63,633 nucleotides of DNA, from positions 197,713 to 261,345 of the forward strand of contig PMOB01000010.1 in NCBI GenBank assembly GCA_003161615.1. The letters run 5' to 3'. Positions 58,286 to 62,646 of this stretch are shown here, in pieces; the first letter of the stretch is position 1, and every line of letters begins with the position of its first letter. A program made the translations under genes and the position numbers. The notes beneath the pieces are model-generated. The model did no database searches, had not been told where the DNA came from, and saw nothing but the letters and a program-made list of their open reading frames with translations. This stretch comes from Actinomycetota bacterium (GTDB lineage: Bacteria > Actinomycetota > Thermoleophilia > Gaiellales > Gaiellaceae).

Positions 58286-58379
58286 ATTCGAGTGCCTCCT
58301 GTATGTGGAGTTCCAAGCGCCCCCACGACGCTTCGCGCGGTATTCGCGCACCGGCCGGAACCGGTTCGCCCGCGCTTGA

Positions 58380-58405
58380 GGAATACGCGGCATCCCGCAG
58401 CCGTT
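58380..58405. promoter_or_regulatory. SigR/SigH-type promoter of the sigma-anti-sigma operon
   Basis: GGAAT (58380-58384), exactly 18 bases, then GTT (58403-58405), the known consensus of SigR/SigH-type ECF factors. Initiation would fall near 58412, almost at the ATG (58415), so the transcript is near leaderless. On the opposite strand the same sequence reads GGAAC-N18-ATT, a near match, so it may also drive the ferritin-like gene. This predicts autoregulation. Confidence 0.7.
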
Positions 58406-58414
58406 CCTGACCTT

Positions 58415-59026
58415 ATGAGTGCCACTGGTACGGTTGAGCGCGTGGACGCGGAGTCGCAAGACCCGCAGCGGCTGGCGGCCGAGGCGCGCGACCGTGTCAG
58501 GTTCGAGGAGGAGGCGCTCGCCCTCGCCGACCAGGTCTACCGCGTCGCCCGCCACATGGCGAACTCGCGCGAGGACGCCGAGGAGCTCGTGCAGGAGACG
58601 TATTCGCGCGCCTTCCGCAGCTGGCGCTCGTTCACGCCCGGCACGAACCTGCGCGCCTGGTTGCTTCGGATCCTCACGAACCTCAACATCGACCGCGGCC
58701 GGCGCCAGCAGCGGGCGCCCCAGATGCAGCCGCTCGAGGCGAACGACTACTACCTCTACGACCGGCTCGCCGACGACGGGGACGGCATCTCCGACGAGGA
58801 CCGCGTCGTGGAAAGGCTCTCGCAGGACGACATCGTCACGGCACTCTCGGAAGTGCCGCACGACTTCCGCGACGTCGTCGTGCTCGTCGACATCGGCGAC
58901 TTCAGCTACGCCGAAGCCGCCCAGATCCTCGACATCCCGGTCGGCACCGTCATGTCGAGGCTTCATCGTGGCCGTCGTATCTTGAAGGGAGCACTCGCAG
59001 AATCGGCTTTGGAGGAGGCGACATGA
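58415..59026 (+). CDS. SigR/SigH-like ECF sigma factor
   Basis: A 203-residue redox-type sigma factor. Region 2: LADQVYRVARHMANSREDAEELVQETYSRAFRSWRSF; region 4: LSEVPHDFRDVVVLVDIGDFSYAEAAQILDIPVGTVMSRLHRGRRIL. This sequence form (FTPGTNLRAWLLRILTNLNID) is that of the SigR/SigH/RpoE group controlling thiol stress. The adjacent RsrA-like gene overlaps by four bases. ATG at 58415 is just downstream of a matching promoter. Confidence 0.93.
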   Translation: MSATGTVERVDAESQDPQRLAAEARDRVRFEEEALALADQVYRVARHMANSREDAEELVQETYSRAFRSWRSFTPGTNLRAWLLRILTNLNIDRGRRQQRAPQMQPLEANDYYLYDRLADDGDGISDEDRVVERLSQDDIVTALSEVPHDFRDVVVLVDIGDFSYAEAAQILDIPVGTVMSRLHRGRRILKGALAESALEEAT

Positions 59027-59256
59027 GCATCGATCCCTGTGCGCACTGCGAGGAGATGATGCAGCCGTACCTCGACCACGTCCTCACGGACGCGGAGATG
59101 GCCGAGGCGGAGAGGCACCTCGCCGACTGCGAGCCATGCCGGCGGCGCTACCGGTTCGAGGAGAGCCTGCGCGTCTACGTCCGGAACGCGGCCGCCGAGC
59201 AGATGACTCCCCAGCTGCGGGAGAAGCTCTCCGCGCTGCGCATCCCGCTCGAATAG
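59023..59256 (+). CDS. Zinc-binding anti-sigma factor, RsrA-like
   Basis: A 77-residue ZAS protein. The zinc motif is HLADCEPCRRRY, that is H-x3-C-x2-C (His92-type spacing), with CAHCEEMMQPYLDHVL at the start giving further cysteines. In RsrA, disulfide formation among these releases the sigma factor. The partner at 58415 is the target. Overlap by ATGA gives equal synthesis. Confidence 0.92.
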   Translation: MSIDPCAHCEEMMQPYLDHVLTDAEMAEAERHLADCEPCRRRYRFEESLRVYVRNAAAEQMTPQLREKLSALRIPLE

Positions 59257-59319
59257 CACCACAGCCGCTCCGACGAAGCGCTCGGACTGCCAGCCGACCA
59301 CGGCCATAGGCTCTTAGCG

Positions 59320-60114
59320 GTGGCGGAGACAGCGGCAAAACGGGACAAGCGTTATCTGAATTACCTGCTCGACGCGGTTAAGGCGGCGGCGAGAAAACCA
59401 CCGCAGTTCGGTACGGGTAAGGACGTGTCAGTCGACGAGTTCAGGCGGCTCTACGGTGACGATCCTTTCTACGCCTGGATCGGCTTCGACTCCGACCTCC
59501 TCTACGCCGCACACAAAGCAGGCGCCGCGATGACCTCTCTCTACCGCAAGCTCGGCGACGGCTGTCAAGACCTCTGGCGGGCGATCATCCGCGATCAGTT
59601 TGGCGTTGCGGATAAGGACGCCAAGTGGGAATACACGGTTCCGACGGCGAAAGGGCCGCGGAAGCGGATCCTCGACGGCCGTATCGACGTACTCGACTTC
59701 CCGGAGTCCGACGCGCTGGAACGCTTCCGGCGGGACTGGCTACCGAAAGCGAAGAAGAAGCTCGGCGCGACGATCAATCCGCGTGGAGCGGTGTTCGAGG
59801 TGCGGCAGGGCTACAAGAGCCAAGACGCGAAGCGGGCTAGCGGCGACGTGGACAACGCGGGCCGCATCGCATTGGAGAGCAGCCTGCCGTCGCTAGTCGT
59901 GTTCTCGAATCAGATCCCCGAGCAGATCGCGCGCCGTTATGCGAGTGCAGGGTGGCTCGTCCTTCGCGGCACCACTGCAGACGACCCGCTCACGAGCACG
60001 TTCGCCTTCGCGGATGCAGTCATGGGCTTTGACCTTGCGCGCCTTTTCGAGATGAACTCGCAACACCTTCGCGACCAAATCGAGGTGATCCTTGCGGAGG
60101 TGTTGAAGCCATGA
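59320..60114 (+). CDS. Putative type II restriction endonuclease
   Basis: A 264-residue protein without a certain family match. A helical start (KRYLNYLLDAVKAAARKP) is followed by a likely PD-(D/E)xK core: KRILDGRIDVLDF (Asp119, Asp123), then GAVFEVRQGYKSQDAKR (Glu160, Lys166). The stop overlaps the methyltransferase ATG. The tandem of unknown nuclease-like protein and a DNA methyltransferase is the ordinary type II layout. A TAGGCT element seven bases before the GTG is compatible with a leaderless start. Codon use is less GC-biased than around it. Confidence 0.7.
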   Translation: MAETAAKRDKRYLNYLLDAVKAAARKPPQFGTGKDVSVDEFRRLYGDDPFYAWIGFDSDLLYAAHKAGAAMTSLYRKLGDGCQDLWRAIIRDQFGVADKDAKWEYTVPTAKGPRKRILDGRIDVLDFPESDALERFRRDWLPKAKKKLGATINPRGAVFEVRQGYKSQDAKRASGDVDNAGRIALESSLPSLVVFSNQIPEQIARRYASAGWLVLRGTTADDPLTSTFAFADAVMGFDLARLFEMNSQHLRDQIEVILAEVLKP

Positions 60115-61319
60115 CCGCATTTGGTCTTCAGGAGCACCTGACTCACCGCGGGAACGTTCGTAGCTCCCGGTACGGCTGGCTCCGGTTGACCCCCATGTAC
60201 TCCGTCCACCTTGTGGACGAGCTACTCGAGGCCGACTTGCGACTACGTGAAGGCCGGGTACTTGACCCGTTCTGCGGGACAGGCACGACAGCACTCGTTT
60301 GCGCCGAACGCGGGATCGCCGCTGACACCTGCGACATCAACCCGTTCCTTCTTTGGCTAACCGACGTGAAGACGCACGACTACACGCAGGCCGAACGCGC
60401 TGCCGCGGCAGACCACGGAGCGACGATCCTTGCCGCCGCGCGTGCGAAGAACCGCGGGATCGTGTGGGTTCCGCCGCTGCGCAACATCGAGAAGTGGTGG
60501 GAGGAAGGCGTACTCGGGGCGCTTTCACGCGCCTGGGAGATGGTTCAAGCCTGTGGGTCGGAGCCGGCGCGCTGGCTCCTCACGATCGCCTTTCTGCAGG
60601 CCGCAATCAAGACCGCGCACGTTAGCTTCGGGCATCAGTCGATGAGCTTCAAGCAGCGAGCCGAGCGTTCCGGCGTTGCGCTGTTCGAGACGGAGTGGCA
60701 GGCCGCGCTCGACTCAATCCTCGTCGCTGCTGACTCGCCAATCCTCGCAACTCCGCGAACGCTGCTCAGCGACGCACGAGGGCTCACATCGCTTGAACCG
60801 AACGCCTACGCCAGCGTCATCACGTCGCCCCCGTATTGCAACCGGATGAGCTACATCCGCGAGCTACGCCCTTATATGTACTGGACTGGCTACCTCGCGG
60901 ACGGTCGAGCTGCGGGCGAGTTGGACTGGCAGGCAATCGGCGGTACATGGGGACTCGCGACCTCGAACGTGGGCAAATGGCAGCCGCCAGCGGACGATGT
61001 CGTCGTGCCGTTCCCCGGTTTCCCCGGGATCGTGGAACGTGTGTCTGCGTCCTCAAACGTGCTTGGTCGCTACATCGCTAAGTACTTCCACGATGTCGTA
61101 CTCCACGCGCGCGCGCTCGCCGGGGTCGTGCAACCTGGCGGCTCTGTCCACTACGTCGTCGGCAACTCAAAGTTCTACGACGTGCTCGTGCCGACCGAAG
61201 CGATCTACGCAGCCGTTTTCGAGTCCGTGGGCCTGGAACAGGTCATGGTGCGGACGATCCGCAAGCGCACCTCGAAGAAGGAGCTGTACGAGTACCTCGT
61301 CTCGGCGAGACGGCCGTGA
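60111..61319 (+). CDS. DNA methyltransferase (N4-cytosine/N6-adenine type)
   Basis: A 402-residue modification enzyme. The SAM motif I is LDPFCGTGTT (51-60), with CDINPF as the acidic strand, and the catalytic motif IV TSPPY is at 238-242. The long helical gap between them (about 160 residues) may carry target recognition. TSPPY favours N4-methylcytosine but N6-adenine is possible. With the upstream gene it would form a type II R-M pair. The composition matches the upstream gene. Confidence 0.9.
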   Translation: MTAFGLQEHLTHRGNVRSSRYGWLRLTPMYSVHLVDELLEADLRLREGRVLDPFCGTGTTALVCAERGIAADTCDINPFLLWLTDVKTHDYTQAERAAAADHGATILAAARAKNRGIVWVPPLRNIEKWWEEGVLGALSRAWEMVQACGSEPARWLLTIAFLQAAIKTAHVSFGHQSMSFKQRAERSGVALFETEWQAALDSILVAADSPILATPRTLLSDARGLTSLEPNAYASVITSPPYCNRMSYIRELRPYMYWTGYLADGRAAGELDWQAIGGTWGLATSNVGKWQPPADDVVVPFPGFPGIVERVSASSNVLGRYIAKYFHDVVLHARALAGVVQPGGSVHYVVGNSKFYDVLVPTEAIYAAVFESVGLEQVMVRTIRKRTSKKELYEYLVSARRP

Positions 61320-61339
61320 CCTTGCCGACGTTGCCCTAA

Positions 61340-61828
61340 CTAGAACAGTTCATCGACGTCGCCCGGCGGCGTCAGATCGTCGCAGGCGACGAGCCGGGCC
61401 GGGAGCGACTTGGCGCCCTCGTCGGGGACGCTGCCCCACACACTGCGCGCGAGCAGGACGGGGTGCAGGCGGACGCCGCCGTAGGCTGCCGCGACGACGT
61501 CGCCGCCGTTCGCGCGCCAGTCGGCGACGACCCGGTCGATCGCACGCGGGTCGAGATCGGGGCCGTCGGCGAGGACGACGACCGCGGCTTCGACGTCGTC
61601 GCCGAGTGCAGCCAGGCCGCAGCGGAGAGAGGCGCCGGGACCGAGTTCCCAGACCGCGCACTGGACGCTCTTCACCGGCAGCGCGTGAGCGCCGCTCACG
61701 ACGACGATCTCGTCCACGAGCGAAGCGTCGAGTGCGGTCAGCACCGCCTCGAGGTGGACGAGCTGCTTCGGCGGCTCCGTCCCGTAGCGCGAGGATGCGC
61801 CCGCCGCGAGGACGACCGCCGCAATCAA
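61340..61828 (-). CDS. MobA-like nucleotidyltransferase
   Basis: A 162-residue NTP transferase. The start IAAVVLAAGASSRYGTEPPKQLVHLE is the family's NTP loop (LAAGASxR...K), and VVVLADGPDLDPRAIDRVV contains the Mg-binding Asp block. Such proteins (MocA/MobA type) add CMP or GMP to molybdopterin. TTG at 61828 overlaps the FAD subunit stop, tying it to the molybdenum hydroxylase genes. It is somewhat shorter than MocA (about 190). Confidence 0.88.
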   Translation of the reverse strand: MIAAVVLAAGASSRYGTEPPKQLVHLEAVLTALDASLVDEIVVVSGAHALPVKSVQCAVWELGPGASLRCGLAALGDDVEAAVVVLADGPDLDPRAIDRVVADWRANGGDVVAAAYGGVRLHPVLLARSVWGSVPDEGAKSLPARLVACDDLTPPGDVDELF

Positions 61829-62646
61829 TCGAGTTGTGCGAGCGCGCGGCCGACGAGCGCACGTGCGAGCGGCAGCTTCCACTCCGTGCGCGGCAGCGGC
61901 GTCGCGTTATCCAGCGCTTCGATCGAGTCGATCCGCCACGGGATCGGCGCGACGCCGGCGAGTGCGATTCGGACTCCGCCGCCGACGCGAGCCGCGGCGA
62001 CGCCGACCTGGGGGAACGACCACCGCTTCCTGTCCATCGCCTTGAGATAGACGCTCGCCTCCACGTCCGGCAACTCGACCTCGAGGATCAGCTCGCCGTC
62101 CTCGAGCGTCGTTGTGTGGCGGTCAGCCTCGTCCGGCAGCCGGTAGAGCTCCTCCACACGAAGTTCGCGGCGGTTCGTCCGCAGCCGCGCGCCGAGCGCG
62201 ACGAGCGCCGCGGCGACGTCTGAAGGGTGGGCGGAGGCGCAGAAGTCGTTGGCGAAGATCGCGTGCTCGCGGTGCTCGCCGTCGCGCGCATGGCAGCGGT
62301 CGCCACCGTGCAGGCGGCAGGGATAGTCGAGCCGCCAGTACCAGCAGCGGCTCGACTGCAAGAGATTGCCGCCGAGCGAGCCCATGTTGCGGAGCTGCGG
62401 CGACGCGGCGAGCCGGCACGCCTCGCGCAGAGCGTCCGGAATGGAAGGCTCCACCTCGAGCTCGCCGAGCGTGGTGCCGGCGCCGATGACGCCGTCGCTC
62501 ACGCCGCGCGGCACGACGCCGCGCACGTCGACGAGCGTCTCCGCCTCGAGCAGCCCGTCGCGGAGGAGCGGCACGACCTCGGTGCCGCCGTGAACGAACA
62601 CCCCGCCGTCGAGCTCCTCGACGCTAGACGGTCGCAGGAGCTCCAC
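61825..62646 (-). CDS. Molybdenum hydroxylase FAD-binding subunit
   Basis: A 273-residue CoxM/XdhB-like subunit that passes electrons between the Fe-S and FAD parts. FAD motifs are VHGGTEVVPLLRDG and LRNMGSLGGNLLQ. Between them and the C-terminal domain four Cys (101, 110, 118, 136; SRCWYWRLDYPCRLHGGDRC and DFCASAH) match the extra [4Fe-4S] loop of PaoB/YagS-type and HcrB-type enzymes. So electron flow may include an added cluster. Its start overlaps the large subunit by 23 bases. Confidence 0.92.
   Translation of the reverse strand: MELLRPSSVEELDGGVFVHGGTEVVPLLRDGLLEAETLVDVRGVVPRGVSDGVIGAGTTLGELEVEPSIPDALREACRLAASPQLRNMGSLGGNLLQSSRCWYWRLDYPCRLHGGDRCHARDGEHREHAIFANDFCASAHPSDVAAALVALGARLRTNRRELRVEELYRLPDEADRHTTTLEDGELILEVELPDVEASVYLKAMDRKRWSFPQVGVAAARVGGGVRIALAGVAPIPWRIDSIEALDNATPLPRTEWKLPLARALVGRALAQLD

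Follow-up and report, generated by a model that had tools for sequence, protein, structure and literature searches.

BanII, HgiJII and EcoT38I are restriction enzymes that recognise GRGCYC, and their likeness to the system described here lies in the recognition word that we predict for it; in structure, EcoT38I (7e8r) aligns with a model of our nuclease at Z 5.2 over 133 residues (rmsd 6.0), and no PDB chain was matched by profile. The excerpt of PMC11649196 that was consulted gives GRGCYC as the site of BanII and describes, for Propionibacterium freudenreichii TL110/TL29, a GRGCYC motif with a 5mC mark that was assigned by homology and Nanopore calls, in DNA that is resistant to BanII. Compared with our locus by motif and mark, on the same excerpt (PMC11649196), the TL110/TL29 system has the GRGCYC motif in common with our prediction but carries 5mC, a mark that a TSPPY enzyme would not make. 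On one viral contig (L241, see below), a nuclease of the family studied here does adjoin a C5 methyltransferase. GRGCYC also appears among the absent words of a halovirus in the excerpt of PMC7911831, which has no bearing on the present system. In the consulted portions of the literature on GRGCYC restriction, BanII/HgiJII, EcoT38I and restriction avoidance, no description of this nuclease family was found.

The window, by which we mean the whole stretch of 63,633 nucleotides analysed here, comes from an actinomycetotal bacterium of the family Gaiellaceae and contains a nuclease gene and a methyltransferase gene that are probably a type II (IIP) restriction-modification (R-M) system, recently arrived as a bare two-gene unit, with GRGCYC as its target and N4-methylcytosine as its means of protection. 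The nuclease, which appears to be of the PD-(D/E)xK type, would cleave incoming DNA at unmethylated sites of the palindrome GRGCYC, and the methyltransferase would protect the host's own GRGCYC sites through N4-methylcytosine, both the cleavage and the modified base being predicted. The evidence suggests that, as a defence system, it is of an ordinary kind, and that what is newly predicted is its target. A restriction enzyme family that is spread across many bacterial phyla, and that has neither a Pfam entry nor a solved structure, gains in this way a concrete and cheaply testable recognition sequence, predicted from genome avoidance alone.

Layout of the locus and its predicted proteins

The locus has the following features, numbered from the first base of the window:

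58380..58405, + strand: SigR-type promoter motif GGAAT-N18-GTT, matched nowhere else in the window, 35 bases before the start codon of sigR
58415..59026, + strand: sigR-like ECF sigma factor gene, left neighbour (profile matches)
59023..59256, + strand: rsrA-like anti-sigma factor gene (zf-HC2), left border of the insert (profile matches, sister alignments)
59257..61350, no strand: inserted segment of ~2.09 kb, holding the nuclease and methyltransferase genes only (sister-genome alignments)
59320..60114, + strand: predicted type II restriction endonuclease, 264 aa, GTG start (PADLOC PDLC03512, fold model, pairing with a TSPPY methyltransferase)
59674..59835, + strand: predicted active-site stretch of the nuclease, D119 to R172 (alignment A2, 46 sequences)
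60111..61319, + strand: predicted TSPPY amino methyltransferase, 402 aa, ATG start (PADLOC MTase_II, model and fold)
60264..60290, + strand: methyltransferase motif I, DPFCGTGTT (P53, G56, T59 and T60 invariant in 45 sequences)
60387..60728, + strand: helical region between motifs I and IV, approximately residues 93-206 (secondary structure of the model)
60780..60785, no strand: sole GRGCYC site of the insert (window mean 6.2 per 2094 bp)
60822..60836, + strand: methyltransferase motif IV, TSPPY (invariant in 45 sequences)
61340..61882, - strand: MobA-like NTP transferase gene, right border, its stop codon now inside the insert (profile match)

Both genes of the pair are read from the + strand and overlap by 4 bp (the ORF coordinates were confirmed), and no mobile genes were found inside the insert. 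Their GC3 (0.774 for the nuclease and 0.772 for the methyltransferase) is lower than the 0.85-0.95 of six neighbour genes, and the GC content of 500-base windows over 59250-61499 is 0.62-0.66, as compared to 0.66-0.74 on either side. The left flank consists of the sigR-like and rsrA-like genes, the RsrA-like protein matching TIGR03988 at E 4e-10, under that model's cut-off; downstream, beyond the MobA-like gene, are genes for a FAD_binding_5 protein and a MoCoBD_2 protein, i.e., two molybdenum hydroxylase genes. An earlier note on this DNA had described the pair as lower in GC codon use than its neighbours and as lying, with no other mobile genes, between a SigR/RsrA operon and molybdenum hydroxylase genes, and the composition and the profile matches on both flanks agree with it. 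The note had also proposed an R-M pair, in which the TSPPY methyltransferase is coupled to a 264-residue protein with a possible PD-(D/E)xK core, and had left that protein unassigned. The R-M pair is supported, and the protein has a family: the REase_II model PDLC03512 of PADLOC-DB matches it over its full length (E 1.9e-58, residues 3-262), as it matched all 46 of the aligned nuclease sequences. The window therefore holds separate, adjacent nuclease and methyltransferase genes, as expected of a type II R-M system, and the nuclease belongs to a restriction enzyme family (PDLC03512) rather than to the non-nuclease family that the note had named as the outcome that would count against its proposal.

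Pfam gave no match for the window nuclease and only single matches, at E 0.016 or worse, for its relatives, and sequence and profile searches of PDB chains gave no convincing match. An AlphaFold2 model built from 46 sequences (mean pLDDT 91.7, pTM 0.90) had no Foldseek match at E 0.001 or better among PDB and viral models. When the same model was compared by VIA-align, the top match was EcoO109I (Z 7.5; rmsd 5.6 over 190 residues), with PspGI in third place (Z 7.0; rmsd 5.5 over 167 residues); these best fold matches are solved PD-(D/E)xK restriction enzymes, from which the window nuclease differs in its low identity (8-10 percent) and in having an arginine for the usual lysine. Rows 1-36 of the list are restriction enzymes, Card1/Cdn1/Can2-type proteins and VC1899, the non-restriction rows presumably belonging to the PD-(D/E)xK superfamily as well, and rows 37-50 follow at Z 3.4-4.4. 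Because every Z is below 8, the fold claim rests on the consistency of this list; on a confident model, then, the nuclease would be of the PD-(D/E)xK kind with restriction enzymes as its best PDB matches, much as had been supposed. Residues D119, E160, R162, Q163, Y165, K166, S167, D169, K171 and R172, among others, are invariant in the alignment of 46 nuclease sequences (A2). D119 and E160 fit the PD-(D/E)xK core, the +2 position that is usually lysine is the invariant R162, and K166 and K171 are candidates, to judge from the alignment, for the role of that lysine.

The window methyltransferase, METHYLTRANSFERASE, carries DPFCGTGTT (residues 52-60) and TSPPY (residues 238-242), and is matched by MTase_II models of PADLOC (best E 1.8e-26); its model (pLDDT 90.1) shows a Rossmann methyltransferase in linear order and aligns with Trm11 at Z 17.5 over 176 residues (rmsd 2.6). 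It has the motif I, the motif IV of the form (S/D/N)PP(Y/F) and the Rossmann fold of an amino (m4C/m6A) DNA methyltransferase, and the order of its motifs would place it in class alpha. Class alpha amino methyltransferases have their target recognition between motifs I and IV, and the helical region at approximately residues 93-206 is presumably a part of it here. The length of this segment had been remarked upon as unusual; the long stretch is real, but it is largely helical and a trait of the family.

Insertion of the pair and its empty site

The two-gene unit arrived recently, as a bare insertion at the point where rsrA and the mobA-like gene meet by their 3' ends. When the region downstream of sigR was compared with the window in 14 same-genus genomes, the pair was absent from all 14, and in seven of them (G014, G011, G004, G006, G001, G008 and G013) rsrA and the mobA-like gene are adjacent, which indicates that ~2.09 kb with only these two genes was inserted; the other seven have a different stretch between rsrA and the mobA-like gene. 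Alignments of the sisters to the window end at 59247-59257 and start again at 61349-61353, no junction repeats longer than 7 bp were found, and the mobA-like frame, which continues into rsrA in four sisters, ends in the window after three new residues. The nuclease was found in one of 61 searched relatives, the window's own genome, and its family in two of 396 genomes of the phylum, one of these being a fragment at a contig end in G223. The comparison with sister genomes that had been suggested as a check thus exposes the empty site directly in seven same-genus genomes, and the contrary outcome named with it, namely genes of native composition conserved in place, did not occur.

The closest relative among the best 80 of 341 methyltransferase relatives (see below) is that of Candidatus Gaiellasilicea maunaloa (L099), also of the Gaiellaceae, whose nuclease is 63 percent identical to that of the window and whose pair sits elsewhere, between two ORFs that, judged by eye, read as pyruvate kinase and enolase. 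Comparison of the window with L099 gave a dN/dS of 0.21 (nuclease) and 0.26 (methyltransferase) at a dS of ~1.4, so that both genes are under purifying selection. The locus cleanly illustrates how an R-M pair can enter a genome with nothing but its two genes: sister genomes keep the empty site, and the closest relative has the pair elsewhere.

The rsrA-mobA junction looks like a variable site (e.g., L064:498-1199 and L068:2313-2675). It holds a LytR_C/HTH protein in G002, with similar sequence in G005, G010 and G012, and a 120-aa ORF without a Pfam match in G003, with similar sequence in G007 and G015. In the G223 fragment (L006:1984-3507), the family nuclease starts immediately after an ORF that looks, by eye, like a transposase, and the contig end cuts it short.

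The family and the avoidance of GRGCYC

Scanning genome contigs with an alignment of three methyltransferase sequences yielded 341 relatives; the best 80 of these, together with three from viral contigs, make up the 83 loci used here. The nuclease lies immediately upstream of the same methyltransferase in 60 of the 83, and the phyla with the pair are Chloroflexota, Planctomycetota, Cyanobacteriota, Verrucomicrobiota, Acidobacteriota, Myxococcota, Actinomycetota and others. The nuclease gene is split in two pieces in 11 of these 60 loci. No nuclease was found in the examined flank of the remaining 23, a flank that is shorter than 0.8 kb upstream for L105, L139 and L162. A contig scan with the nuclease alone found no relative because its peptide patterns came from a divergent member, and the plasmid and phage collections gave no match to the nuclease.

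Several loci are assembled in other ways. On viral contig L241 (2838-4825) the family nuclease follows a C5 cytosine methyltransferase (PF00145, E 1.5e-61) rather than the TSPPY enzyme, a pairing that is a partner exchange, and in Thermogemmatispora (L124:3050-5242) the methyltransferase stands behind an Mrr-type nuclease gene (PF04471, E 2.1e-35) that replaces the family nuclease. The nuclease gene of Hormoscilla (L163, L165) is without its middle, profile positions 4-51 and 203-269 being left, next to an intact methyltransferase. Myxococcota loci L109-L112, L150, L154, L166 and L175 have the methyltransferase and no nuclease in the examined flank, and GRGCYC is undepleted there; these enzymes are possibly solitary housekeeping methyltransferases.

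Against expected counts from an order-2 Markov model within each locus, GRGCYC occurs 218 times for 596 expected in the 60 loci with the nuclease and 316 times for 348 in the 23 without it, and it is below expectation in 57 of the former (sign test, 3e-14) and 13 of the latter (0.34). All variants of the word are low in the loci with the nuclease (observed/expected: GAGCTC 56/136, GGGCCC 44/170, GAGCCC/GGGCTC 118/289), and the neighbour words GAGCAC (253/226), GGGCAC (237/255) and GCGCCC (625/645) are not depleted, with the exception of GTGCAC (40/105). Whole genomes show the same avoidance: most of those with the pair are short of GRGCYC, in several cases down to some 1-3% of the expected number, with GAGCTC present 11 times in 4.8 Mb (G454), five times in 4.9 Mb (G462) and 10 times in 5.4 Mb (G466), and GAGCCC eight times on both strands of 4.7 Mb (G482). 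When the 6-mers expected at least 15 times are ranked in 178 kb from seven avoiding genomes, the scarcest three are precisely GAGCCC, GAGCTC and GGGCCC; having been chosen for a site-free locus, these genomes reveal the shape of the avoided word and not how common avoidance is. The specificity, for which the earlier note had no proposal, is accordingly no longer a blank, as site avoidance in related genomes points to GRGCYC. One variant, GGGCCC, has no adenine, so an amino methyltransferase that protects every variant must modify an invariant cytosine, and a GRGCYC target together with a TSPPY enzyme would imply an N4-methylcytosine mark.

Two other candidate targets were rejected. CYCGRG, presumably the site of AvaI, is low in loci with the nuclease (346/588, as compared to 390/340 without it), and in the seven genomes pooled it stands at 35/171 and GRGCYC at 6/190. 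The wider GDGCHC was set aside because the pooled loci show no depletion of GAGCAC and GGGCAC; G454, a genome in which many words are scarce, has the two at 4/91 and 4/85, respectively.

The target of the window member

The genome that holds the window (G000) does not itself avoid the word (GRGCYC 649/532 in 200 kb; 3991 GAGCTC in 2.3 Mb), nor does that of L099 (7722 GAGCTC in 3.9 Mb), and the genomes of L103, L104 and L116 are likewise not depleted. Within the PDLC03512 family, the window and L099 nucleases deviate jointly at 17 of 74 near-invariant positions, including Q77K and the QNA stretch at 173-175, so that for the window member it is the conserved methyltransferase that carries the prediction, with less certainty. 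These departures and the lack of avoidance in both genomes are what might be expected if the Gaiellales branch of the family had changed its target, such that the nuclease, and perhaps the methyltransferase, reads another word or a part of GRGCYC. We regard such a change as rather unlikely, given that the methyltransferases of the window and L099 keep all but two of 114 near-invariant positions and are sisters (100/98) in the methyltransferase tree, nested within a group that holds the avoiders L106, L097, L098, L102 and L100. Moreover, a nuclease cannot safely cut beyond the sites that its methyltransferase protects, and a recent arrival accounts for the missing avoidance in the window genome. 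From the sequences, GRGCYC specificity inherited by recent arrivals seems the simplest reading, with a changed nuclease target as its main rival, and we infer that the window member keeps the GRGCYC target of its family.

A scarcity of GRGCYC in the relatives could also have other causes (general palindrome avoidance, composition or other R-M systems), in which case the target would be another word. Palindrome avoidance is general, many palindromes are scarce in the loci, and CYCGRG is scarce too in several genomes. The non-palindromic GAGCCC/GGGCTC, however, is as scarce as the palindromic variants, and its neighbours GAGCAC, GGGCAC and GCGCCC are not. The median per-locus ratio of GRGCYC (0.24) is the lowest among 20 patterns listed, and GRGCYC also shows the widest difference between loci that have the nuclease and loci that lack it. 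A panel of 151 Chloroflexota genomes, drawn evenly around G460 and not chosen for absence of the site, bears on the same question. PDLC03512 was found in five of them, with 23, 110, 23, 39 and 48 GAGCCC per Mb, where the other 146 have a median of 565 (p 4e-4; p 0.007 with only the three carriers not selected before), and the methyltransferase in nine, of which eight have 16-162 GAGCCC per Mb and the most distant (G634) ~865. Equally low values in 24 of the 146 genomes without the nuclease family lend some weight to other causes, which on balance we consider improbable. Several genomes of the panel that lack the family have almost no GAGCCC, e.g., G645 (11 in 2.7 Mb), G516 and G541; they may hold an unrelated system directed at a similar word.

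That the nuclease is inactive in the window lineage, leaving the pair to act as a methyltransferase only, like the solitary relatives, is very unlikely. In its favour are the lack of site avoidance in the window genome, the split nuclease genes of 11 of the 60 loci and the 23 methyltransferases, out of 83, whose examined flank has no nuclease; against it, the window gene has an intact reading frame, the invariant core residues and a dN/dS of 0.21 against L099.

The position of a system probably directed at GRGCYC behind the sigR-rsrA genes may also affect its expression. GGAAT-N18-GTT, which we take to be the SigR motif, precedes sigR in 22 of the 23 genomes that were compared, and its place there suggests autoregulation of sigR-rsrA. 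A scan of 58300-61500 recognised neither a sigma-70-type promoter nor a terminator in the gap from rsrA to the nuclease gene, and two terminator-like sites on the other strand are within chance expectation. The nuclease gene begins 63 bp after rsrA on the same strand and, with no terminator recognised, read-through from the SigR promoter is possible. Because of this spacing, the conserved SigR-type promoter, and a nuclease that has diverged beside a methyltransferase that has not, one may speculate, at long odds, that the Gaiellales system is a stress-linked defence, in which the nuclease would be made by read-through under thiol-oxidative stress and its cutting would be altered or narrowed. 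If true, stress-linked expression with altered cutting would also explain a host genome full of GRGCYC sites.
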